A DNA stretch of 64,000 bases from Clostridia bacterium (lineage in GTDB: Bacteria > Bacillota > Clostridia > Acetivibrionales > DSM-27016), in the NCBI GenBank assembly GCA_026414765.1, contig JAOAIJ010000043.1, positions 124,001 through 188,000 of the forward strand, read 5' to 3'. The position numbers and the translations under genes are program-made. The notes under the pieces were generated by a model. It saw only the letters and a program-made list of their open reading frames with translations, did no database searches and was not told where the DNA came from. This document shows, in pieces, positions 33,581-61,551 of the stretch (position 1 is the stretch's first letter; each line of letters begins with the position of its first letter).

Positions 33581-33792
33581 ATATTTCCGGATAATCGGTT
33601 TAGACAGATATTACAAAACAAATCAAGGAAATGGAGGCAAATGTAACAGTAGAAACGATTTTAACCTGAAGTATAGTTGTCTGTAGTTTGTTGTATCAAA
33701 AAAACTTGAAACCGGTAAACCTGTCTTTACGACTATATTTTGTGTCCCGGGTATATAATATATATATATAACCTGTGTGCGAGGTGGACACA

Positions 33793-34956
33793 TTGGATTT
33801 ATATTTTGATATGAAATTGGTCCAATCACAAAAGGTCTTGTTGACTCCTCAACTGAAACAGGCTTTTGATATACTAAGAATGAATTCCCAAGAGCTGTTT
33901 GAATATGTAGAAGAACAATTGGAAGAAAATCCTGCATTGGAGATACTGGAAAGTGTCAACAGCGATGGTTACTATAATTGTGCATATAAAGATGACTCTA
34001 TCGGATGGGGAGACAGTAATATTAATACGGATACCCTGAGGAAACCAGGGGAGGATGAAAACGAGGAAGAATACAACATGTCTACGGGAAGTGCTGATGA
34101 AAAGCTGTCCTTGAAGGAGCATTTGCTGTTTCAGCTGCACACTTCCGATTTGAGTGAAAATCAAATGTGTATAGGAGAATATTTAATTGACAACATTGAT
34201 GAAAATGGTTATCTGATCATTGGACTTACTGAAGTTGCAGAATTTTTCAATGTGACAGCTTCAAAAGTAAAAAAAGTTTTAGAGTACTTACAGACCTTTG
34301 ATCCTCCCGGAATATGTGCCAGGAGTTTGAAAGAATGTCTTTTGATCCAACTTAATCAGCTCAGTATAAATGATAAGGAGGATGCCCAAAAGCTGGTCGA
34401 AAATCATCTTGATGATCTCGCCGGGGAGAAATTGGATTTTGTAGCAAAAAACATGGGATTACCGCTCCATAGAGTAGAAGAGGTTTTCAGGGTTTTGAAA
34501 ACTTTGGAGCCAAAGCCCGGTAGGGAGTATTATAACAATACAGGGGTAAAGTATATAATTCCTGACATTATCATTAGAAACAGCAATGGCAGGTTTGAGA
34601 CAGTTGTCAATGAGGATGCCGTGCCGTTATTGAATATCAACGAGTACTACAGGAAGATTCTTAGTGCTGATGTAGGAAATGAAGTGAAAAGATTTATTGT
34701 TCACAGGATTGATAATGCAGCTTGGCTGCTTAAGTGTATTGAAGAAAGAAAGAATATGCTGAAAAAGGCTGCTGAATGTATAGTCGCATACCAATTGTTG
34801 TTTTTTGAGAAGGGAAAACAATTCTTGAGTCCTATAAGCAAAAAAACCATTTCGGATGAAATAGGTGTACATGAATCAGTAATTGAAGAAATATTAAGCG
34901 GAAAGTATATTCAATGTGCCTGGGGAGTTTTTGAAATGAAGGATTTTATTAGTTAA
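33793..34956 (+). CDS. rpoN: RNA polymerase sigma-54 factor, C-terminally truncated
   Basis: 387 aa from TTG 33793 behind GAGGTGG. Region I, the activator-interacting segment, is intact (LVQSQKVLLTPQLKQAFDIL, residues about 10-29), the core-binding domain is present (about 100-290), and the start of the DNA-binding domain with its helix-turn-helix is there (KKTISDEIGVHESVIEEIL, then GVFEMKDFIS). The protein stops there. Full-length RpoN continues for about 60-90 residues and ends with the ARRTVAKYRE-like RpoN box that reads the -24 element. That box is absent here and no other frame nearby encodes it, so promoter binding should be impaired. Confidence 0.85.
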   Translation: MDLYFDMKLVQSQKVLLTPQLKQAFDILRMNSQELFEYVEEQLEENPALEILESVNSDGYYNCAYKDDSIGWGDSNINTDTLRKPGEDENEEEYNMSTGSADEKLSLKEHLLFQLHTSDLSENQMCIGEYLIDNIDENGYLIIGLTEVAEFFNVTASKVKKVLEYLQTFDPPGICARSLKECLLIQLNQLSINDKEDAQKLVENHLDDLAGEKLDFVAKNMGLPLHRVEEVFRVLKTLEPKPGREYYNNTGVKYIIPDIIIRNSNGRFETVVNEDAVPLLNINEYYRKILSADVGNEVKRFIVHRIDNAAWLLKCIEERKNMLKKAAECIVAYQLLFFEKGKQFLSPISKKTISDEIGVHESVIEEILSGKYIQCAWGVFEMKDFIS

Positions 34957-34960
34957 GGCA

Positions 34961-34983
34961 AGGGTGGAAGACTCCACCTTTGC
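34961..34983 (+). terminator. Weak terminator after rpoN
   Basis: GGTGGA (34963-34968) and TCCACC (34973-34978) flank AGAC; the T-run is only three bases, so termination may be partial. Confidence 0.5.
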
Positions 34984-35009
34984 AACTTATAAACCGCAAT
35001 GAAGGTTTC

Positions 35010-35315
35010 CTAAAAAGGCCATATAGGCTTTTGTTGTCCGGATATACCCAGAAATCCCTGAATACCGGCACTGCCGAACATATCCTTCTCAATATCACTA
35101 ATCCTTTCCTCGGTATAGTAAGTTATTTCTCCTACTTTTTTTACACTTTCCGCAAAATCTCTTAGTTTATTAATTTCATTAGCTGTCAAAGAGCTTTGAC
35201 AGTCGTCGGAGTTTAAAATTCTGTTTAACTCCGATGCATACTCATACCCGTCTTCTACATCCTTAATACCGTTTTTTATGAAGTATTTCAATCTTTCCGG
35301 AATATTACGTTCCAT
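35010..35315 (-). CDS. Unrecognised 101-aa protein
   Basis: It starts at ATG 35315 behind a strong AGGAGG (CAGGAGGTTATGGAA), so it is probably expressed. The product is soluble, acidic and mostly helical for the first 75 residues, and ends with a Gly/Gln-rich tail (GIQGFLGISGQQKP). No family is recognised. It is transcribed towards the truncated rpoN and away from the recombinase. Confidence 0.55.
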   Translation of the reverse strand: MERNIPERLKYFIKNGIKDVEDGYEYASELNRILNSDDCQSSLTANEINKLRDFAESVKKVGEITYYTEERISDIEKDMFGSAGIQGFLGISGQQKPIWPF

Positions 35316-35427
35316 TTTCCATAACCTCCTGATGCTTAAATTATATACATTTTGAATGATTTTTAAAATATGGACATTTATTATTTACATATATATGAAC
35401 TAGACAAATATATGTATAGAGTTGGTT

Positions 35428-35559
35428 ATGAAAGGGAAAAAAAGAAACCCGAAGTATAAAAACATAATAAAGAAATATTCAAACGAAACACCATGCGAGG
35501 AAGCACTTTATAAAATGATTTTCCTTTATATAAAATCAGGTTTGACCGGTAAGGTGTGA
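35428..35559 (+). CDS. Small basic ORF before the recombinase
   Basis: 43 codons from ATG 35428 to TGA 35557-35559, very basic at the N-terminus (MKGKKRNPKYKNIIKKYS). It ends 6 bp before the recombinase ATG and so resembles a coupled companion gene. No good ribosome site is seen before the ATG and no homology is recognised. It may be a small directionality-type or unrelated protein, or simply open by chance. Confidence 0.4.
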   Translation: MKGKKRNPKYKNIIKKYSNETPCEEALYKMIFLYIKSGLTGKV

Positions 35560-35565
35560 TGCAGT

Positions 35566-37104
35566 ATGAATAATATATACTATAACATTGGGATATATGT
35601 ACGTGAAAGCCGGGATGATAATGAAGAAAACTATGAAACCATTGAAACACAACGGGATTTATTAATAGACTATATAAATAAAAATAAGATTGGAAGGATT
35701 TATAGTACATATATAGATGATAATGTATCAGGTTCTGCTTTTGAACGCAGGGGACTGGAAAAGCTGAAGGAAGATGTATTGAACCGGAGTATAGATATGG
35801 TTGTGTTGAAGGATTTGTCAAGGCTTGGGAGAAATAATGCGAAAACACTCTTGTTTCTTGACTTTCTTGAAGAAAACGGGATAAGGGTAATTACTTATGA
35901 TGGCAGGTATGACAGCTATAGAGATAATGACACAGTCGGAATCGATACTTGGTATAATGAGCGCTACATAAGGGATATTTCGAGAAAAATCCGTGCAAGC
36001 ATACACTATAAAATACAAAAGGGGGAGTATATAGGGAGTGCTCCATATGGATACAGAAAATCGGATATACATAAAAACAGGTTATGCATTGAACCTTTTG
36101 AAGCAAGTGTGGTAAAAGAGGTATTTGAATACTATAAGCAAGGACATGGATATGCATATATTGCAAAATATCTTAATTTAAAAGGGTATCTGCCTCCATC
36201 ACTGCGAGGGACATGGAATGCAATATCGGTAAAGAGGATATTATGTAATGCTGTCTATACAGGAGATACAGTACAAGGAGTCAGCGAAAAAATTAGCTTT
36301 AAGAGCAAAAAGACAAGAAGAATACCGCCTGAAAGGTGGGTAGTTACTAAAGATACTCATGAGGCTATAGTAAGCAGGGAAGAATTTCTTGAAATTCAGA
36401 GAATCAGGCTGGAAAAAAGCTCTGGCAGCAGTTCATATAAGGGAGATATTCATTTATTCAAAGGTTTACTGTTTTGTGGGAAATGTGGAAGTGCTATGTT
36501 TGCACGTAAGAGAAAAGACAGATATCTAGGCTATATATGCAGTACATATGCAAAACGTGGAAGTTGCGCATGCAGCAGCCATCATATAAGCGAAACATTT
36601 TTAATGCAGATAATTTGCGATGAAATATTGGCGCTGCTAGATGATGTTGCAGTCAGGGCAAGGCTGGTAGAAAAGATAAACAACATATATTCAAATACTT
36701 GCAAAAATGAAGATGAAATACGTCGTTTTGAGCTTATGCTTTCAAATAAACAAAAGCAACAGGAGATATTGTATATGGATAAGCTTGAAGGGAAAATTTC
36801 CGAACAATTGTTTTTGAGAATGAATCTAAATATAGAAAATCGAATACTGCAAATAAGAAATGACATTGAAAAGCTAAGAAAAAGCAAAGTTAAGATTTCA
36901 GACACGGAAACAATAATTGAAGAATTTATCGATAGCATAAAACAATATAAAGCAACTAACGAAATACTTAAGCTCATTATTTTTAGAATAACAGTCTATG
37001 AAAAGGAAGATATCCCTGAACAATATAGAGTGCTAAAAAAGAATGACCCTTCCGGATTAGTGGAAGTAGATTTTAAATTCAGTCCTGCTTTAGGCAGTTG
37101 CTGA
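35566..37104 (+). CDS. Large serine recombinase
   Basis: 512 aa. The N-terminal resolvase domain has the catalytic pattern Y-x-R-x-S (IYVRESRDD), VVLKDLSRLGRNN and a long E-helix (residues 120-150). The Recombinase domain (APYGYRKS to PPERW) and the zinc ribbon (CGKCGSAMFARK then CSTYAKRGSCAC) follow, with a coiled-coil at 370-470. These enzymes integrate or excise phage, transposons and skin-like elements by joining attP and attB. No phage, cargo or att pair is evident. The gene lies 600 bp after the truncated rpoN. Confidence 0.92.
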   Translation: MNNIYYNIGIYVRESRDDNEENYETIETQRDLLIDYINKNKIGRIYSTYIDDNVSGSAFERRGLEKLKEDVLNRSIDMVVLKDLSRLGRNNAKTLLFLDFLEENGIRVITYDGRYDSYRDNDTVGIDTWYNERYIRDISRKIRASIHYKIQKGEYIGSAPYGYRKSDIHKNRLCIEPFEASVVKEVFEYYKQGHGYAYIAKYLNLKGYLPPSLRGTWNAISVKRILCNAVYTGDTVQGVSEKISFKSKKTRRIPPERWVVTKDTHEAIVSREEFLEIQRIRLEKSSGSSSYKGDIHLFKGLLFCGKCGSAMFARKRKDRYLGYICSTYAKRGSCACSSHHISETFLMQIICDEILALLDDVAVRARLVEKINNIYSNTCKNEDEIRRFELMLSNKQKQQEILYMDKLEGKISEQLFLRMNLNIENRILQIRNDIEKLRKSKVKISDTETIIEEFIDSIKQYKATNEILKLIIFRITVYEKEDIPEQYRVLKKNDPSGLVEVDFKFSPALGSC

Positions 37105-52991: not shown

Positions 52992-53528
52992 ATGAGTAAT
53001 ACACAAGATATTATAATCGCCGGTTTTGGTGGTCAAGGTATACTTTCAGCTGGAAGGTTACTTGCTTATGCAGGTATGCTGGAAGGAAAACATGTATCAT
53101 GGCTTCCTTCATATGGCCCCGAAATGAGGGGTGGAACTGCAAATTGCCATGTAGTAATTTCGGATGAGCCAGTAGGTTCACCTATATTGAACAGTGCAAC
53201 TACCTTGGTTGTAATGAACGGACCTTCATTGGACAAGTTTGAAAGTATGGTAGACAGTGGAGGAGTAATAATTACCGATAGCTCCCTTGTAGACAGAAAA
53301 GTTAAAAGGACGGATATAGATGTGTTTGAAATCCCTGCTACGATGATGGCATCAGATATGGGAAATCTGACATATGCGAATATAATCCTTTTGGGAAAAC
53401 TTATAGCAAAGACCGGTATCATAAAAAAAGAAAATTTTGAGGAAGCACTTAAGAAAGTTCTTCCCAAAAAATACCATGATTTAATACCGGAAGAAATGAA
53501 AGCATTGGATTTAGGTATGAATTTCTGA
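52992..53528 (+). CDS. 2-oxoacid:ferredoxin oxidoreductase gamma subunit
   Basis: 178 aa. IIAGFGGQGILSAGRLLAYAG at the N-terminus and SWLPSYGPEMRGGTANCHVV are diagnostic of the gamma subunit, which shapes the CoA-binding site. It begins 17 bp after the beta stop, completing the delta-alpha-beta-gamma set. A terminator follows at 53591. Confidence 0.93.
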   Translation: MSNTQDIIIAGFGGQGILSAGRLLAYAGMLEGKHVSWLPSYGPEMRGGTANCHVVISDEPVGSPILNSATTLVVMNGPSLDKFESMVDSGGVIITDSSLVDRKVKRTDIDVFEIPATMMASDMGNLTYANIILLGKLIAKTGIIKKENFEEALKKVLPKKYHDLIPEEMKALDLGMNF

Positions 53529-53590
53529 TGGAACATAGGAAATAGGCCTTATTTAGGTTGCAGCATAAATTCAGCGAAGTTTTCATTAGT

Positions 53591-53625
53591 AAGGATGATT
53601 CAATATGAATCATCCTTTTATATTT
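53591..53625 (+). terminator. Terminator of the oxidoreductase operon
   Basis: AAGGATGATTCA and TGAATCATCCTT form a perfect 12-bp stem around ATA, followed by TTATATTT. Confidence 0.88.
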
Positions 53626-53722
53626 AAAGATGCCAAAAAAATTTTCAATATATTTTTAGTAAATAGTTGTATATTGTAGAACAAAACTTTATATAGTAAC
53701 TATTGTAATATATGGCAATATC

Positions 53723-53757
53723 TGCGGACTCTTTTGGGGTTCGCTTTTATTTATTTT
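53723..53757 (+). terminator. Second terminator-like hairpin
   Basis: GCGGAC pairs with GTTCGC (one G-T pair) around about 10 bases, followed by TTTTATTTATTT. The rest of 53529-54115 contains the promoter and inverted repeats listed below and no gene. Confidence 0.45.
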
Positions 53758-53833
53758 GGAGTAAATCTTTAGCTTATACAGAAAAAAATAAAAAGAAGGT
53801 ATTATACGACGCTGAAATGTATAATATCAAACT

Positions 53834-53864
53834 ATTTCCCAGCAAAAATCAAAAAATGGGAAAT
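53834..53864. repeat. Inverted repeat upstream of the lipid cassette promoter
   Basis: ATTTCCCA (53834-53841) and TGGGAAAT (53857-53864) with a 15-bp spacer end 14 bp before the -35 box. The place suits an activator or repressor site. Confidence 0.55.
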
Positions 53865-53878
53865 AATAGCAAGAATAG

Positions 53879-53907
53879 TTGACAAACTTAGACAAATTTA
53901 GTATACT
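53879..53907 (+). promoter_or_regulatory. Sigma-A promoter of the lipid cassette
   Basis: TTGACA (53879-53884) and TATACT (53902-53907) with a 17-bp spacer that holds two near-identical decamers GACAAACTTA and GACAAATTTA. It is the strongest promoter match in the region and reads into the acyltransferase gene about 210 bp downstream. Confidence 0.85.
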
Positions 53908-53940
53908 AACCAAGGGAATATATGTAAAATATGTTAATAA

Positions 53941-53961
53941 AACAAATATCAGATATTTGTT
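53941..53961. promoter_or_regulatory. Palindromic operator candidate
   Basis: AACAAATATC-A-GATATTTGTT is a perfect 10-1-10 palindrome 33 bp after the -10 box, where a repressor would block early transcription. No matching regulator gene lies in the window. Confidence 0.6.
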
Positions 53962-54115
53962 GGTCGATGTTTTGCGATAAGTATATTCATTATCTAAGAG
54001 GTAATATTATCAATTTTTACAGAAATCATAAAACGTTCTGTTTTTGAAATTACACCATACTCACATATGGATATTATGTTTAGGCCTGAGTTCACATGAA
54101 GGAGTGATAATTCTT

Positions 54116-54832
54116 ATGAGAAAAGATAGTTTAGAAGAAAATGACACTTGTGGTGAATATAGCAGGGTTTATCTTTATATATGTTCTGTCATTGCGAAAA
54201 TTACATGCTTAACAGCATTTTTTTATTTCAAGATATTCTGTCACGGTAAAATTGTAAATGAAGAAATCATACGAAGAAACATGGAAAAAGGATTTGTCCT
54301 TATAAGCAATCATGTAAGCTATATGGATTGGTTAGTGCTGCGGGGTTATTTTCTTTATTGCCATCAAATAAAAATGATCTTTCTTGCTAAAAACAAGCTA
54401 TTCCACCATCGTATTTGGAAATATACGGTGATTGGATCAAGGGGTGTAAGGATTTCGGATACAGGTACAAAAATCTACTCACACAAAGAATACAAAAGAT
54501 ATCTGGAAGAGAAGTATGTCGGAGTTTTTCCTGAAGGGACCCGTTCTTTTACAGGGGAAATCAACAATACCCATGGTGGAATTATTAAAATTGCAGCGAA
54601 GAAAAATGTTCCAATTATCCCTATTAACCTGGAAGGTTTTTATAATGTGTTACCTAGAGATAAAAAAATTCCGAGGCCATATCCTTGTAGGATTATTGTT
54701 GGTAATGAGTGTCGCTTTGATTATGAAAATGTGAGACGGAAAAGTGAAGCAGAGCTTGGAAAATGTGTAGCTGAGATGCTAACTAGTCTTGAATATACAG
54801 ATATAAGAGAACTAAATACACTTAAAAGCTAG
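54116..54832 (+). CDS. Lysophospholipid acyltransferase (PlsC-like)
   Basis: 238 aa from ATG 54116 behind AAGGAGTG; an upstream ATG at 54044 has no site. An N-terminal membrane segment (YLYICSVIAKITCLTAFFYF) precedes the acyltransferase domain. Motif I is NHVSYMD (HX4D), motif III is FPEGTRS and motif II/IV segments with VIGSRGVRI and IIPINLEG are seen. It esterifies a lysophosphatidic acid or similar acceptor. It opens the cassette of lipid genes read from the promoter at 53879; its acceptor may differ from that of the housekeeping PlsC. Confidence 0.9.
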   Translation: MRKDSLEENDTCGEYSRVYLYICSVIAKITCLTAFFYFKIFCHGKIVNEEIIRRNMEKGFVLISNHVSYMDWLVLRGYFLYCHQIKMIFLAKNKLFHHRIWKYTVIGSRGVRISDTGTKIYSHKEYKRYLEEKYVGVFPEGTRSFTGEINNTHGGIIKIAAKKNVPIIPINLEGFYNVLPRDKKIPRPYPCRIIVGNECRFDYENVRRKSEAELGKCVAEMLTSLEYTDIRELNTLKS

Positions 54833-54936
54833 TTGGTTAAAGTGTAAAGCTAAACAGTAATGAATGATAGTTATACATAATAACGTTTTGCAACTTTTAT
54901 AAACTAAATAATTTATTAGGATTCGGGTGAAAAGGT

Positions 54937-55842
54937 ATGTTGATAAACCAATTCAGGCTTTATGCCGTAATCATTCTGTTAATTTGCATGTTTGTACACT
55001 TATTTCCTACTATAATTTTATCCGCAATAAAGAAAGGAAAGGGTGGAAGGCCTATTTGGGCAACTTATTTATCATGGTTCATTATGCTTCCGATATTGTT
55101 TGGACCGCTGATTGCCGGAAGAAATGCGTTTATCATTCTTTGCTTTGTCGTATCAATTCTTGGAATTATGGAGTTTGCTCGTCATACGGTACTCAGAGAT
55201 GATAAATTATCTAAACTGATAATTTCTTTTTGTTTATGCATACTTTACATAACTGTATTCTTAAACAAAAGTGAACTCCTTTTATGCTTATATTTTCTAT
55301 CGTATGTACTGATAATATTTTACTACCTGCTGCGGCAGGAACCGGAAAAAGGACTGGACAGACTGCTATTGTCATTGCTGCTCTTTACATTTTGCGGGGT
55401 ATTTTTTATTTTTCTTCCGCTTCTATATAATGAAAGGAGCGGTAAGGAATTCCTGTTTATTTATTTCCTGCTCTTAATAAACAATGATGCTTTCGGGTAT
55501 ATTTTTGGAACCATATTCGGAAAACACCGGCTTATTCCAAAGGTATCTCCGAATAAGACAGTGGAAGGTTTTATTGTGGGTATTTGTGCAACTGTGCTAA
55601 TAGGACTTGTCCTTCGTCATTATCTCGTTCCTGGATATCCTATCGGCTATTTTCTGATATTATGCATTATTCTTTCATTGGGAGGCATTACGGGCGATTT
55701 AGTAATGTCGATGTTTAAAAGAAGCCTAAAACTCAAGGATTTCGGCAACTTGATTCCTGGGCATGGGGGTATATTGGACCGGTTAGATTCTCTTTTGTTT
55801 ATAGCTCCGGTTTTTTACTTTTACATAGTTAACTTGCATTAA
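54937..55842 (+). CDS. Phosphatidate cytidylyltransferase-like (CdsA/YnbB-like)
   Basis: 301 aa with eight or so membrane segments. The C-terminal CDS signature SMFKRSLKLKDFGNLIPGHGG then ILDRLDSL contains the conserved K-D, H-G-G and D-R-x-D residues that bind the CTP-Mg complex. It makes CDP-diacylglycerol, or a related CDP-lipid, for the CDP-alcohol transferase two genes downstream. It follows the acyltransferase by 104 bp. A housekeeping cdsA would be expected elsewhere in the genome next to frr/dxr. Confidence 0.88.
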   Translation: MLINQFRLYAVIILLICMFVHLFPTIILSAIKKGKGGRPIWATYLSWFIMLPILFGPLIAGRNAFIILCFVVSILGIMEFARHTVLRDDKLSKLIISFCLCILYITVFLNKSELLLCLYFLSYVLIIFYYLLRQEPEKGLDRLLLSLLLFTFCGVFFIFLPLLYNERSGKEFLFIYFLLLINNDAFGYIFGTIFGKHRLIPKVSPNKTVEGFIVGICATVLIGLVLRHYLVPGYPIGYFLILCIILSLGGITGDLVMSMFKRSLKLKDFGNLIPGHGGILDRLDSLLFIAPVFYFYIVNLH

Positions 55843-55896
55843 AGAATTCATAACAAGTTTATAAAAATAAAGTTAATAAATAAATAGGAGGAAGAT

Positions 55897-56694
55897 ATGA
55901 ATAAGATAGTTTTAGTAGGCAGTAAGATTTTCTACCATACTATAGGGAGACTAAGTACAGGTGTTAACATGACCCTAAAAGAGGGATTAACAGCCGGAAA
56001 GGTTCTGGATTATATCTATGAGAATGAACCTAGGGGCAAAACATTCATAGGGCGCAAAATTGATAAAAATTATCTGAATCATGTTGGGTGGGAAGCAGTA
56101 AGGGTAAGAAAAAGGAATATTGAAATACTGATTAAAGAAGCTATAAAAATGGCAAAAAAGGAAAAGAGAAAAATAAAAATTGTTGATATAGCATGTGGAT
56201 ATGCATCATATCTGTTTTCAGTATTAAAAGAACTTAATGATACGGATATTTCGGTATATTGTTACGATATTGAACCACGCTGGGTAAAAGCAGGAAATGA
56301 TAAAGCGGCTGCATTGAAAATTAAAAACATAAAATTTCAACAAGGGGATATGCTTAATGAAGCATTCGCATCCAAACAATTAAGTGATGCCGATATTGTG
56401 ATTTCATCAGGGTTTTATGACTGGCTTGTTGAGGATGATACTGTTATACATTCTATGAAAATAATTAAAAATGCTGCAGCGCCGGGTGCCAATTTTGTTC
56501 TATCTTATCAGATGGATCATCCTTGTCTGGATTTGGCACAATACGCATTTAGCAGTTTTACCGGGGATCCCTTGAAAATGAAAATGAGAAGTAAATCTGA
56601 AATGGGCAAAATGCTTGAAAAAGCCGGGGTTAATCTGATTAGTGAAAAATCGGATAAGTATGAATACTATAATACGGTTTTAGCGAGGTGCTAA
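55897..56694 (+). CDS. SAM-dependent methyltransferase, YnbC C-terminal-like
   Basis: 265 aa from ATG 55897 behind AGGAGGAAG. A class I Rossmann methyltransferase: motif I IVDIACGYASYLF, the acidic motif II YCYDIEPRW, motif III FQQGDM and ADIVISSGFYDWL. The first 95 residues are an extension also seen in the Methyltransf_20 family, which in E. coli forms the C-terminal part of the YnbC hydrolase fusion; here the hydrolase part is absent. It ends 1 bp before the next gene. It probably methylates the product of the lipid pathway or its head group. Confidence 0.75.
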   Translation: MNKIVLVGSKIFYHTIGRLSTGVNMTLKEGLTAGKVLDYIYENEPRGKTFIGRKIDKNYLNHVGWEAVRVRKRNIEILIKEAIKMAKKEKRKIKIVDIACGYASYLFSVLKELNDTDISVYCYDIEPRWVKAGNDKAAALKIKNIKFQQGDMLNEAFASKQLSDADIVISSGFYDWLVEDDTVIHSMKIIKNAAAPGANFVLSYQMDHPCLDLAQYAFSSFTGDPLKMKMRSKSEMGKMLEKAGVNLISEKSDKYEYYNTVLARC

Positions 56695-56695
56695 T

Positions 56696-57346
56696 ATGGA
56701 TATAGGCTTATATAATGCAAAATACCCGTTCAGAAAGTTCATATCGGGTATCTTGCGTTATACAAAAAATATTTCTCCAAATACTATCTCTGTGAGCATG
56801 CTGCCTGTGGGTGTATTTACCGGTTTATGCTACTATTATGCAGATGAGTACCCTGGTTTGCTGATGCTTGGGGCGATACTGATTTTTGTCAGGATGATTC
56901 TCGGTACACTTGACGGCTTAGTGGCTGTTACCTATAACAAATGTTCCCCTGAGGGAGAAATTGTGAATAGAATCACTCCGGAATTATGTGATGTAATTCT
57001 CATTGTGGCTATAGTTTTAAAGCAAAATGATTCTAGTGGCTTGGGATTCTGGGTGTTGGCAATGGCTTGGATTACGAGTTTTGCAGGACTTGTTGGACTT
57101 ACAGGCAAAAAACCAATTCAAAGTGTCGGCCCGGTAGGACAGACAGATAGAATTACGGTTCTTATGTTTCTCTCGGTATTTGGTTTTATTGCTTATCTAT
57201 TAGGGTATAGCTTGCCCGTTTTAAGATGGTTTATCTGGTGGTGTATTGGCGGCGGTATTATTACCATAACTATCAGATTTTATCGGAACTTATCTGTTTC
57301 AAAAAATGATAAGAATATTTCTAATAGTGCAAAGAAAAATATGTGA
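56696..57346 (+). CDS. CDP-alcohol phosphatidyltransferase, YnbA-like, variant active site
   Basis: 216 aa with about six membrane segments. The CDP-alcohol transferase motif is recognisable but altered: G-T-L-D-G-L-V-A-V then 8 residues, G-E-I-V-N-R-I-T-P, where the canonical form is D-x2-D-G-x2-A-R-x8-G-x3-D-x3-D. Thus the first Asp is Gly, Arg is Val, the third Asp is Asn and the last is Pro; a nearby CD follows. A second conserved segment GPVGQTDR matches the GPxGxxDR I recall in E. coli YnbA, whose own motif is also altered (N for the first D). It should attach an alcohol to a CDP-lipid, or have a changed role. Confidence 0.75.
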   Translation: MDIGLYNAKYPFRKFISGILRYTKNISPNTISVSMLPVGVFTGLCYYYADEYPGLLMLGAILIFVRMILGTLDGLVAVTYNKCSPEGEIVNRITPELCDVILIVAIVLKQNDSSGLGFWVLAMAWITSFAGLVGLTGKKPIQSVGPVGQTDRITVLMFLSVFGFIAYLLGYSLPVLRWFIWWCIGGGIITITIRFYRNLSVSKNDKNISNSAKKNM

Positions 57347-57354
57347 GGTACGGC

Positions 57355-59343
57355 ATGAAAGATTTTAGTCCGGAAATGAATCATTTTGATCGCCAGTTTA
57401 AACTAAAGAAAAATACAAAATTTTTAAATCATGCAGCGACAAATCCCATTACGAAGGAAGCTTCCATAATAATGCGGAAGATAGCCCGCCAGGCAATGGA
57501 CCCGATGGATGAGCATCTTGTTGATTGGTTGGGTATGATTGAACAGGCAAGAAGACAGACTGCAAATCTTTTAAAGGCCAGTGCAGATGAAATAGCTTTT
57601 GTTCAGAGTACTTCAGCCGGTTTATCGCTAATTGCCAATATGATTCCCTTTAAAAATGGGGATGTGATTCTATATGATAAAGATGATTTTCCATCCAACC
57701 GATTTATTTGGGATTGCATGTGCTACCGTAATGAGATTTCAATACAGGCTGTCGCATTTTCATACACTACAGGAGAAGATTTATTGGAAACATTGTCACA
57801 GTACGACATATCGAGAGTGAGAGTAATAAGCCTCAGTGCGGTTTCCTACTATACAGGCTATCGTCATAATCTAAAAGCTATAGGAAAATTTTGTCGTGAA
57901 AACGGCATATATTTGTGTGTGGATGCTATTCAGGCTGTTGGGGCTTTAGATATTGATCTGAGTGACTTGTGTGATATTTCATTTCTTGCATGTGGGGGGC
58001 AAAAGTGGCTTCATAGTCCTATGGGTAGCGGATTTATCTTTATAAGGAAAAATCTGATGGAAGAAGTTAAGATGCCTATGCTGGGCTGGACCAGTGTCGA
58101 TAAGGCAGGCTTCTTTCATGCAGAGCATATGAAATGGCTTGAAGGTGCATCAAGGTTTGAAGCGGGTTTTCCAGATGTAAATGTAATAGCCGCGCTTGGA
58201 AGAAACATCGAACTGTATAATTCTTTTGACATTAAAAACATAGAAGCTGAAGTAAAGAAACGTGTGAATATGATTCATAAAGCGGCTGAAGGCTGGCCTG
58301 TAAAAATTCTTAACACGGATTATCAAAGAAATCCGTCGGGGATAGTTTCTTTTGAGCTAGATTCGAAGGCTTTATCGGAAGAAATTGATAATGCCTTGGA
58401 AAAAAGAAATATTGCTGTTACAAGACGGAATAATTACTTTCGGATTGCACCACACTTTCATACAAGGGAAGAGCATATTCTGGAGACAATTGATATTTTT
58501 TCAAAATATCTTACAAAAACGAGAACAAGTAGCAAAATAGAGCAAGTGCATGAAACAGCTTCTCTCCCAAAAACAAAGACAGCGGCAGTAGTCGGTGCTT
58601 CTGGTGGGTTGGGAGAAGCAGTTGCAGAAGACCTGGCATCGAGGGGTTATGATCTGTATCTAACGGCTAGGGATGAAAAAGCATTGGATGACCTGGCTTT
58701 AAGGCTAAAAAAAACCTATCATATCCAGGTTTCAAAACTTAAAGTAAACTTGTCAGACCAGAACGAGGTGGATTATTTATCCAAAACCCTTGCAGGTGCC
58801 TCTTTAGATTTCTTTGCATATACTGCCGCTGCATCATCTGCAATAAAAGTCATAGAACAAAGTAATCTGGATGAAAAGCAAATTTTTGATGTAAACTATT
58901 TTACACCTGTTCAACTTTGTAAGAGCATTATGCCCGGGATGATCAAACGCAACAGCGGACATCTTTTATTTATTGTCACTGCAGGTGCCCGTAATTCTAC
59001 TCCGTTGTTCTCAACTTATGCTGCTTCAAAGGGGGCATTATGGTCGTGGGCGGAGAGCCTGGCCAGAGAGTTGAAAGGGTTATCAGTTACATGCACAATA
59101 GGAATACCGCCGCATATGAGTTCCGCTACTCAACAAAAATTAGCGAGAAATGCGCTAAGATATAATAGGATTAAAAATACAGAAGATATGGCGTACCCGT
59201 CTGTAGTAGCAAAGGATTTGATTAATGCGTCTATAGAAGGACAACCGGTATATGCATCCCGGATCACTAGAATACGACATGCATTTAATGCTCTATTTCC
59301 GGGGTATATGCAAAAGATGGTTACTGCGAAGTATGAACCATGA
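57355..59343 (+). CDS. Class V aminotransferase - short-chain dehydrogenase fusion
   Basis: 662 aa from ATG 57355 behind GTGAGG. Residues about 10-385 are a PLP class V aminotransferase/cysteine-desulfurase-like domain: FLNHAATNPIT, the VDAIQAVGALD strand with the Asp, and the Schiff-base Lys in GGQKWLHSPMGSGF. After a short linker, residues about 405-660 are an SDR: NAD(P) loop VVGASGGLGEAV, and the catalytic Tyr-x3-Lys in STYAASKGAL, but a Thr-Ala-Gly (VTAGA) where the catalytic Ser normally sits. The fusion could act on an amino-bearing head group or keto intermediate. It is the last gene of the lipid cassette. Confidence 0.85.
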   Translation: MKDFSPEMNHFDRQFKLKKNTKFLNHAATNPITKEASIIMRKIARQAMDPMDEHLVDWLGMIEQARRQTANLLKASADEIAFVQSTSAGLSLIANMIPFKNGDVILYDKDDFPSNRFIWDCMCYRNEISIQAVAFSYTTGEDLLETLSQYDISRVRVISLSAVSYYTGYRHNLKAIGKFCRENGIYLCVDAIQAVGALDIDLSDLCDISFLACGGQKWLHSPMGSGFIFIRKNLMEEVKMPMLGWTSVDKAGFFHAEHMKWLEGASRFEAGFPDVNVIAALGRNIELYNSFDIKNIEAEVKKRVNMIHKAAEGWPVKILNTDYQRNPSGIVSFELDSKALSEEIDNALEKRNIAVTRRNNYFRIAPHFHTREEHILETIDIFSKYLTKTRTSSKIEQVHETASLPKTKTAAVVGASGGLGEAVAEDLASRGYDLYLTARDEKALDDLALRLKKTYHIQVSKLKVNLSDQNEVDYLSKTLAGASLDFFAYTAAASSAIKVIEQSNLDEKQIFDVNYFTPVQLCKSIMPGMIKRNSGHLLFIVTAGARNSTPLFSTYAASKGALWSWAESLARELKGLSVTCTIGIPPHMSSATQQKLARNALRYNRIKNTEDMAYPSVVAKDLINASIEGQPVYASRITRIRHAFNALFPGYMQKMVTAKYEP

Positions 59344-59394
59344 AAATCAAGGTATTCAGCCTAATTTAAAATAGTCTATTCATATTTATATTGG

Positions 59395-59444
59395 AAAAAG
59401 CTGTTGCAGAATTGACTTGATCAGTTTTGCAACAGCTTTTATAT
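59395..59444. terminator. Bidirectional terminator (lipid cassette / glnN)
   Basis: AAAAAGCTGTTGCA and TGCAACAGCTTTTAT form a 13-bp stem between convergent genes, serving both. Confidence 0.88.
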
Positions 59445-59457
59445 TACCAGAACCGTA

Positions 59458-61551
59458 TTATACGTTGAATATCATATCGCCATAAGTAGGTAATGGCCAT
59501 ATGTCAGCATCTACTAATGTTTCAAGCTTATCGGCGACTACTCTTAAGCTGCCCATCTTCTCAAATACATCAAATCTGTAGAAATGAGCCTGTTCATATG
59601 TTTCTCCATGCATGCCCTGTGCTTTTTCAACAGAAGATTCAAGAGCTGCAACTTCTTTCTTTAATGAAGAAGCCAAAGAGGATACTTCTGTAAGAAGCTC
59701 AGCTTGAGCGCTTATATCTACAGCTAAACCTGTAGATTTGATAGAATTTACAGAATCCGCAAGTTTAGTAGTAAAGTTTATAACTGCAGGCAATATCTGG
59801 CGTTTTGCGATCTCTATCATTGATAAAGCCTCTATATTGATTGTCTTTATATAGTGCTCTAGTGAGATTTCATAGCGTGATTGCATTTCTACTCTACTGA
59901 GTACACCATGCTTTTCCATAACAGCAAGGTTCTTTTCAGCTATTAAAGCTTTTATGGATTCCACAGTAGTGCTTATATTTGGTAAGCCTCTCTTTTCTGC
60001 CTCTGCAACCCACTCATCAGAATAACCGTTACCATTGAATATTACTTTCTTATGATTCTTAACGATGTCCTGAAGTATAGATTGTATTTCAGCATCAAAG
60101 TTACTTGCCTTCTCCAGTCTGTTTGATATCTGGTCAAGTATTTCGGCTACTATTGTATTAAGAGTGAAGTTGGCTGCAGCAATTGACTGCGAAGAGCCAA
60201 CCATTCTGAACTCGAATTTGTTTCCTGTAAATGCAAATGGTGATGTTCTGTTTCTGTCGGTTGTGTCTTTTGGAAGTGCAGGCAAAGTACTTACACCAAT
60301 CTTCAGGAAACCACCCTGTTTACTGCTTGTCGCTCCACCGTTTTCTATCTGGTCAAGTATGTCGGTAAGCTGATCACCAAGGAAGATGGAAATAATAGCA
60401 GGTGGTGCTTCATTAGCTCCAAGTCTGTGGTCATTTCCGGGGCTGGCAGCAGCTACCCTTAAGAGGTCAGCATATTCATCAACAGCTTTGATTGTTGCAC
60501 AGAGGAATACCAGGAACTGAGCATTATCATGTGGTGTATGACCCGGATCAAGAAGATTCTGACCATCATTTGTACCCAATGACCAGTTATTATGTTTTCC
60601 TGATCCATTAACGCCAGCAAATGGCTTTTCATGCAGTAAGCAGACAAGATTGTGTCTTATTGCAATTTTCTGCATTAATTCCATAGTAAGCTGGTTGTGA
60701 TCTGTAGCAATATTTGTTGTAGTGAATATTGGAGCCAGTTCATGCTGTGCAGGAGCAACCTCGTTATGTTTTGTTTTTGCGGATATTCCTAGTTTCCAGA
60801 GTTCTGTATCCAACTCTTTCATGAATGCAGAAATTCTTTCTTTCAGTGTACCGAAGTAGTGATCTTCAAGCTCCTGGCCTTTTGGAGGTTTAGCACCGAA
60901 AAGGGTTCTTCCTGTATATATAATATCCTTACGCTGATCGTACTTTTCCTTATCTATAAGAAAGTATTCCTGCTCAGGTCCAACAGTTGTAACAACTCTT
61001 GTAGCAGTAGTATTTCCAAAAAGTTTCAATACACGAAGAGCTGATTTGTTTATAGCTTCCATTGATCTTAAAAGAGGAGTTTTCTTATCAAGAGCTTCTC
61101 CTGTATATGAACAGAAAGCTGTAGGTATACAGAGTGTATCATCTTTTATGAATGCAGGTGAAGTGCAATCCCAGGCTGTGTAACCTCTTGCTTCGAAAGT
61201 GGCTCTAAGACCACCTGAGGGGAAGGATGACGCATCAGGTTCACCTTTAATCAATTCTTTGCCGGAAAACTCAAGAATTACTTTTCCATCGGAAGTTGGG
61301 TTGATGAAAGAATCATGTTTTTCAGCTGTAATACCTGTCATTGGTTGGAACCAGTGTGTAAAATGTGTAGCTCCTTTTTCTATTGCCCAGTCTTTCATAG
61401 CATTGGCAACTACTTCTGCAACTGCCGGATCGAGTGCCAGACCTTCATCGATTGTCTTTTTCAAAGCTTTATATGTTGCCTTAGGAAGACGTTCCCTCAT
61501 AACTGAATCGTTAAAAACACTTGAACCGAAAATTTCACTTAATGTACTCAT
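59458..61551 (-). CDS. glnN: Glutamine synthetase, type III
   Basis: 697 aa from ATG 61551 behind AAAGGGG; an ATG at 61578 would give an extra tail that overlaps the site. It is the large GSIII form found in Clostridia, Bacteroides and cyanobacteria. [30 protein letters not shown] and [18 protein letters not shown] supply the glutamate, metal and ATP binding residues. It assimilates ammonium with ATP. The long leader upstream holds a candidate attenuator. Confidence 0.96.

Follow-up and report, generated by a model that had tools for sequence, protein, structure and literature searches.

The DNA analysed here is a stretch of 64,000 nucleotides (the window; contig C43:124001-188000 of a 4.56-Mb Bacillota genome), and it carries a cassette of five plus-strand genes related to the ynbABCD genes of E. 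coli, followed by features of a transcription end. The complete unit spans positions 53879-59440 of the window. All five open reading frames (ORFs) are intact at the positions given by an earlier annotation made from the letters alone (the sequence-only reading), and Pfam searches agree with the families it had named. The features, with their strands, are as follows (PLP, pyridoxal phosphate; SDR, short-chain dehydrogenase/reductase; SAM, S-adenosylmethionine; CDP, cytidine diphosphate; PIP, phosphatidylinositol phosphate; aa, amino acids).

53800-53866, + strand: two hairpins, 5′ of the promoter (RNA fold of -14.3 kcal/mol, z -3.3)
53879-53907, + strand: sigma-70-type promoter, TTGACA-17-TATACT (11/12 consensus positions)
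54116-54832, + strand: PlsC-type lysophospholipid acyltransferase, 238 aa (PF01553, 71 bits)
54937-55842, + strand: CdsA/YnbB-type phosphatidate cytidylyltransferase, 301 aa (PF01148, 208 bits)
55897-56694, + strand: stand-alone class I SAM methyltransferase of the YnbC C-terminal type (Methyltransf_20; PF12147, 182 bits)
56696-57346, + strand: YnbA-type CDP-alcohol phosphotransferase, PIP-synthase-like, with a degenerate catalytic motif (from profile, motif and AlphaFold2 (AF2) fold)
57355-59343, + strand: PLP-SDR fusion of a class-V PLP enzyme with an SDR, 662 aa (Aminotran_5, 142 bits; adh_short, 98 bits)
59396-59440, no strand assigned: terminator-like inverted repeat with 20-bp arms, 90% complementary, between the converging genes for PLP-SDR and glutamine synthetase III

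A promoter match of 11/12 positions arises in 16 of 500 shuffles of the upstream intergenic stretch, which is better than chance but short of proof. The promoter claimed by the sequence-only reading is thus there; that it alone drives all five genes is something that we infer. A perfect 12-bp palindrome, TTAGTATACTAA (53898-53909), overlaps the -10 box, occurs once in the window and is a possible operator. An Rfam scan of 53500-59500, including the upstream hairpins, returned nothing. Ribosome-binding sites place the most likely start of PlsC at ATG 54116, downstream of aaggag (TTG 54044 is an artefact of how ORFs were called), and that of PLP-SDR at ATG 57355, in preference to GTG 57343. The gap between the transferase stop and the PLP-SDR start would then be 8 bp, and the two genes would overlap if GTG 57343 were used. 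The terminator-like repeat at 59396-59440 closes the unit.

The first two enzymes look intact, as judged by their motifs. PlsC has both NHxxxxD and FPEGTR, and CdsA has the complete cytidylyltransferase (CDS) signature SxxKRxxxxKDxxxxxPGHGGxxDRxD and keeps 29 of 33 conserved positions. Both prefer profiles built from ynb-type cassettes: with the PlsC profile the window protein scores 60.8 bits as against 44.8 for the housekeeping PlsC of the same genome, and with the CdsA profile the scores are 195.6 and 139.8 bits, respectively. The closest relative of the window PlsC is a ynb-cassette PlsC of Verrucomicrobia (E 3.5e-18). Together with the PF12147 score of the methyltransferase (cut-off 21 bits), whose relatives at ∼30% identity include E. 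coli ynbABCD and genes of Rhizobium, Burkholderia, Shinella and Fusobacterium, this confirms the kinship to ynbABCD that had been proposed.

A scan of 84 980 species genomes yielded 80 ynb-type loci, distributed over Pseudomonadota, Acidobacteriota, Verrucomicrobiota, Planctomycetota, Myxococcota and a melainabacterial group, and 86 loci were compared, a set weighted towards Pseudomonas and including some loci cut by contig ends. The transferase, CdsA, PlsC and a hydrolase-methyltransferase occur together in 71 of them. PlsC is therefore a regular member of these cassettes in several phyla, and not an addition peculiar to the window, as the sequence-only reading had supposed. An alpha/beta hydrolase domain, either in one protein with the methyltransferase or next to it, is present in all 86, and YnbD, a PAP2-dual-specificity phosphatase, in 72; the window has neither, as judged by its ORF list and Pfam, which agrees with the claim that the hydrolase part is missing. 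No relative of the PLP domain was found in any of the 86 loci (phmmer, E 1e-3). Four of the five genes thus co-occur elsewhere, and the fifth, the fusion, was found here only; the lack of co-occurrence that the sequence-only reading had named as its refutation is therefore half observed. The cassette is common in E. coli, where 4242 of 5426 complete genomes contain 80% or more of it by length. YnbB has been described as a CdsA paralogue whose overexpression raises MPIase and which does not substitute for cdsA (PMC6362211). In the literature searched we found neither the ynb product nor, as the sequence-only reading had also stated, any described pathway matching the cassette.

Several ynb-type loci have features of their own. 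A conjugative E. coli IncK2/Z plasmid (L012, NZ_CP027341.1) carries a cassette to which PlsC has been added and which differs from the chromosomal ynb type, and about one third of a 19-kb plasmid of Burkholderia ambifaria (L014) is a ynb-type cassette, adjoining bcsB/bcsZ. In an Obscuribacterales metagenome-assembled genome (L051:8026-9822) the hydrolase and the methyltransferase are two adjacent genes, and the other cassette genes are absent from the 18 kb covered. Cassettes of the Rhizobiales type contain, between YnbD and PlsC, a conserved protein of ∼145 aa with no Pfam match (L016:8097-8534, with relatives in L013 and L096).

The cassette sits between a 2-oxoacid:ferredoxin oxidoreductase operon and a glutamine synthetase III gene, neighbours whose families were confirmed. 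In a genome of the same family (G245) a stretch of ∼90 bp without any gene separates glutamine synthetase III from the final gene of the oxidoreductase operon; the window, whose copies of these two flanking genes are 82-87% identical to those of G245, has 5.9 kb at the same site. Because the relative has just these ∼90 bp, the cassette looks like a horizontally acquired insertion. The 398 Bacillota, 391 class and 58 order genomes sampled yielded no further PF12147 gene, and the cassette appears to be a single acquired insertion rather than a clostridial lipid pathway. The alternative, loss in G245, is formally possible and would need many parallel losses. The G+C content of the cassette showed nothing distinctive, and a search around the segment for a transposase or for flanking direct or target-site repeats gave none that was convincing. 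In trees, the window genes fall near Verrucomicrobia, Acidobacteriota and Planctomycetota types, but their branches are so long (9.4 changes per site for the methyltransferase, 6.4 for the transferase) that this position cannot be trusted. The genome also has its own housekeeping CdsA and PlsC, as well as three canonical CDP-alcohol transferases, and the cassette is thus an extra set.

What is new here is the state of the transferase. Its match to the general family is marginal (CDP-OH_P_transf, PF01066: 22.3 bits for a cut-off of 22). All 24 aligned YnbA-type transferases match NF040950, the archaetidylinositol-phosphate synthase model, and the best solved relative of the YnbA-type profile is the PIP synthase (PIPS) of M. 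tuberculosis (PDB 6h53, E 7e-19). The AF2 model of the window protein (predicted local distance difference test, pLDDT, 89.7) matches AF2299 and the PIPS of R. salmoninarum (Z 19.7), and so confirms, at the level of a model, the predicted class I CDP-alcohol phosphotransferase fold of PIP-synthase type. In all phyla seen, the YnbA family has Asn at positions D1 and D3 of the signature D1xxD2GxxAR...GxxxD3xxxD4, while D2 and D4, the catalytic base, stay Asp, so that the family motif reads NxxDGxxA...GxxxNxxxD. In the window it reads GxxDGxxA...GxxxNxxxP: Gly70 replaces the Asn and Pro95 the Asp of the base, a position occupied by Asp in every other aligned member, whereas Asp73, Asn91 and Asp99 are kept. 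D2 alone of the four signature Asp therefore survives. A single sequencing error is no explanation, since the codon of Pro95 is CCG, and neither is divergence as such, since an AT-rich, long-branch Fusobacterium member retains both residues. Arg152 and Arg194 are invariant across the aligned YnbA-type transferases, the window included, and were paired through the 6h53 profile match with R155 and R195 of PIPS, which bind the phosphate of inositol phosphate (PMC4634129, PMC6506517). The PIP-synthase fold, these invariant arginines and the Asn at two metal-binding Asp positions lead us to predict a phosphorylated acceptor for the YnbA family, and, from there, a possible role for YnbD as the phosphatase that acts afterwards.

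The methyltransferase (METHYLTRANSFERASE) has also changed. It keeps 37 of 76 YnbC positions (those at least 92% conserved among 32 representatives), while every other member tested keeps at least 74%. Asp97 and Gly101 of the SAM site are retained. Its AF2 model (pLDDT 92.3) has a generic small-molecule methyltransferase fold; the best solved match is 3ocj (Z 23.4), followed by the alpha-keto acid C-methyltransferase SgvM (Z 21.4), a ranking that is not decisive. Given this protein and the Pro95 and Gly70 of the transferase, it is doubtful that the set suffices to build a head group, as had been claimed.

These losses, and the finding of the cassette in one genome only, are what would be expected of an acquired cassette in decay, in which the transferase is dead, the methyltransferase is drifting, no product is made, and CdsA and PlsC duplicate housekeeping functions. 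We consider this improbable. A decaying unit should have picked up a frameshift or a stop within 5.2 kb, but none of the five ORFs is interrupted; they are closely spaced, have ribosome-binding sites and lie between a strong promoter and a terminator, and the CDS and PlsC motifs, the SAM-site residues and the acceptor arginines have all been kept. The selectivity of the losses, with Asp95 and Asn70 replaced and Asp73, Asn91, Asp99, Arg152 and Arg194 left in place, could be read as a change of function: the transferase would be a CDP-lipid-binding partner, or would catalyse a new reaction on a substrate that the PLP-SDR protein supplies, and the methyltransferase would use the same substrate. 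The immediate adjacency of the transferase and PLP-SDR genes and the nearness of the methyltransferase model to small-molecule methyltransferases, SgvM among them, are in line with this. However, matches to generic class I methyltransferase folds are nearly level (Z 19 to 23), and the same changes were found in no relative, so that conservation of the pattern cannot be shown; we therefore regard a change of function of this kind as rather unlikely.

The PLP half of the fusion is a class V enzyme (PF00266), nearest by sequence to SufS and to C-S lyases, in which Lys217 and a carboxylate-type Arg363 are present; no RxGHHC-like desulfurase Cys loop was seen before Arg363, the alignment with SufS chains ending just before the place of such a loop. 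A domain of the desulfurase, C-S lyase or epimerase type does not bear out the head-group amination that the sequence-only reading had proposed. The SDR half resembles mycolate reductase and ketoacyl reductases and keeps GASGGLG and Tyr555-AAS-Lys559, with Thr in place of the catalytic Ser. The nearest match outside the window that is similar to the full length is a pair of separate PLP and SDR genes in Ensifer (24% identity). The fusion itself was not found outside the window in searches that score few candidates per genome, so that a very distant fusion could have been missed, and viral contigs contained no relative of either the fusion or the methyltransferase.

One might then suppose that the PLP-SDR gene belongs to amino acid metabolism and came to lie by chance downstream of a diverged ynb core. 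In rhizobia the PLP relatives adjoin RidA and amino acid transporter genes, in the sampled Bacillota they were found solely as stand-alone genes (in two other Bacillota), and, as seen above, no ynb-type locus examined carries one. We nevertheless doubt such an accident, as the gene lies directly 3′ of the transferase stop, ahead of the terminator and within the same acquired segment. Pairing of a PLP enzyme with an SDR akin to keto-reducing enzymes also recalls sphingolipid synthesis, with the PLP domain as serine palmitoyltransferase, the SDR as 3-ketosphinganine reductase and the other genes adding a phosphate head group. Serine palmitoyltransferase, however, is one of the class II aminotransferases; the PLP half here is a class V domain like those of SufS and the C-S lyases, PF00266 being the sole family reported for it, with no PF00155, which makes this very improbable. 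As to a phosphonolipid route, which would use a class V 2-aminoethylphosphonate transaminase, no PhnW-type model was among the best 25 matches listed for the fusion.

The reading that we favour, with about as much belief as doubt, is that of a horizontally acquired and strongly diverged ynb-type phospholipid cassette in which the PLP-SDR protein provides or modifies a group derived from an amino acid and the transferase step has been changed, replaced or lost. It starts from what is observed, namely the gene content, its kinship, the empty site in the relative and the residue losses; every substrate in the following scheme, and the product, we infer. PlsC would make a dedicated pool of phosphatidic acid, which CdsA would convert to CDP-diacylglycerol. 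In ordinary ynb cassettes, to judge from families and conserved residues, the PIP-synthase-like transferase would couple CDP-diacylglycerol with a phosphorylated small alcohol, YnbD would strip the phosphate, the hydrolase would trim chains and the methyltransferase would methylate the product. In the window, the PLP-SDR protein would form a carbonyl compound from an amino acid and then reduce it to an alcohol or amino-alcohol, the head group; the transferase step would use a changed chemistry, fall to a different transferase of the cell, or no longer take place; and the methyltransferase may act on the product of this pathway.

Four points weigh against this interpretation. First, Asp93 is the catalytic base of the M. 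tuberculosis PIPS and the D93N change alone abolishes activity (PMC4634129), so that with Pro at the corresponding position a working transferase step is doubtful. Second, a search of the genome (G000, 96.9% complete) did not find inositol-1-phosphate synthase (Ino1, PF07994), which makes inositol phosphate an unlikely acceptor. Third, proximity within the operon is the sole tie of the PLP-SDR gene to the lipid genes. Finally, the extreme length of the methyltransferase and transferase branches leaves their placement unsure, and their function may differ. The most far-reaching version, a new phospholipid whose head group is derived from an amino acid through the PLP-SDR protein and joined to the lipid by a CDP-alcohol transferase that dispenses with the canonical catalytic aspartate, we rate as unlikely. 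If true, catalysis without this aspartate would represent changed chemistry in an otherwise strictly conserved enzyme family. The window cassette is a natural experiment on the parts of a cassette that recurs in several phyla: it drops exactly the hydrolase and YnbD, alters the catalytic base and adds an enzyme, which suggests that those parts share one chemical step.

Elsewhere in the window (33775-37104), a serine recombinase gene follows a sigma-54 factor gene.

The ynb-type cassette is a known kind, and the variant in the window is new in the collections searched. With E. coli ynbABCD and other ynb-type cassettes it shares the YnbA-type, PIP-synthase-like transferase, YnbB/CdsA and the PF12147 methyltransferase, and with those of most phyla also PlsC. 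It differs from them by the lack of the hydrolase domain and YnbD, by another gene order, by the added PLP-SDR fusion, by Pro95 and Gly70 in the transferase and by the far-diverged methyltransferase. Like PIPS/PgsA1 (PDB 6h53, 5d92) and archaetidylinositol-phosphate synthase, the window transferase has the predicted fold (Z ∼18-20) and two phosphate-binding arginines; unlike PIPS and archaetidylinositol-phosphate synthase, it has Gly, Asn and Pro at D1, D3 and D4, in a genome with no Ino1 found. The PLP half resembles the cysteine desulfurases SufS/CsdA and the C-DES-type C-S lyases (PDB 6mrh, 1elq) in its class V assignment, PLP lysine and carboxylate-type arginine, and departs from them in the absence of the desulfurase cysteine loop and in its fusion to an SDR. 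The SDR half, for its part, has the Rossmann motif and the YxxxK of classical SDRs (mycolate reductase CmrA, ketoacyl reductases), but differs from these by Thr for the catalytic Ser and by its fusion to a PLP enzyme.

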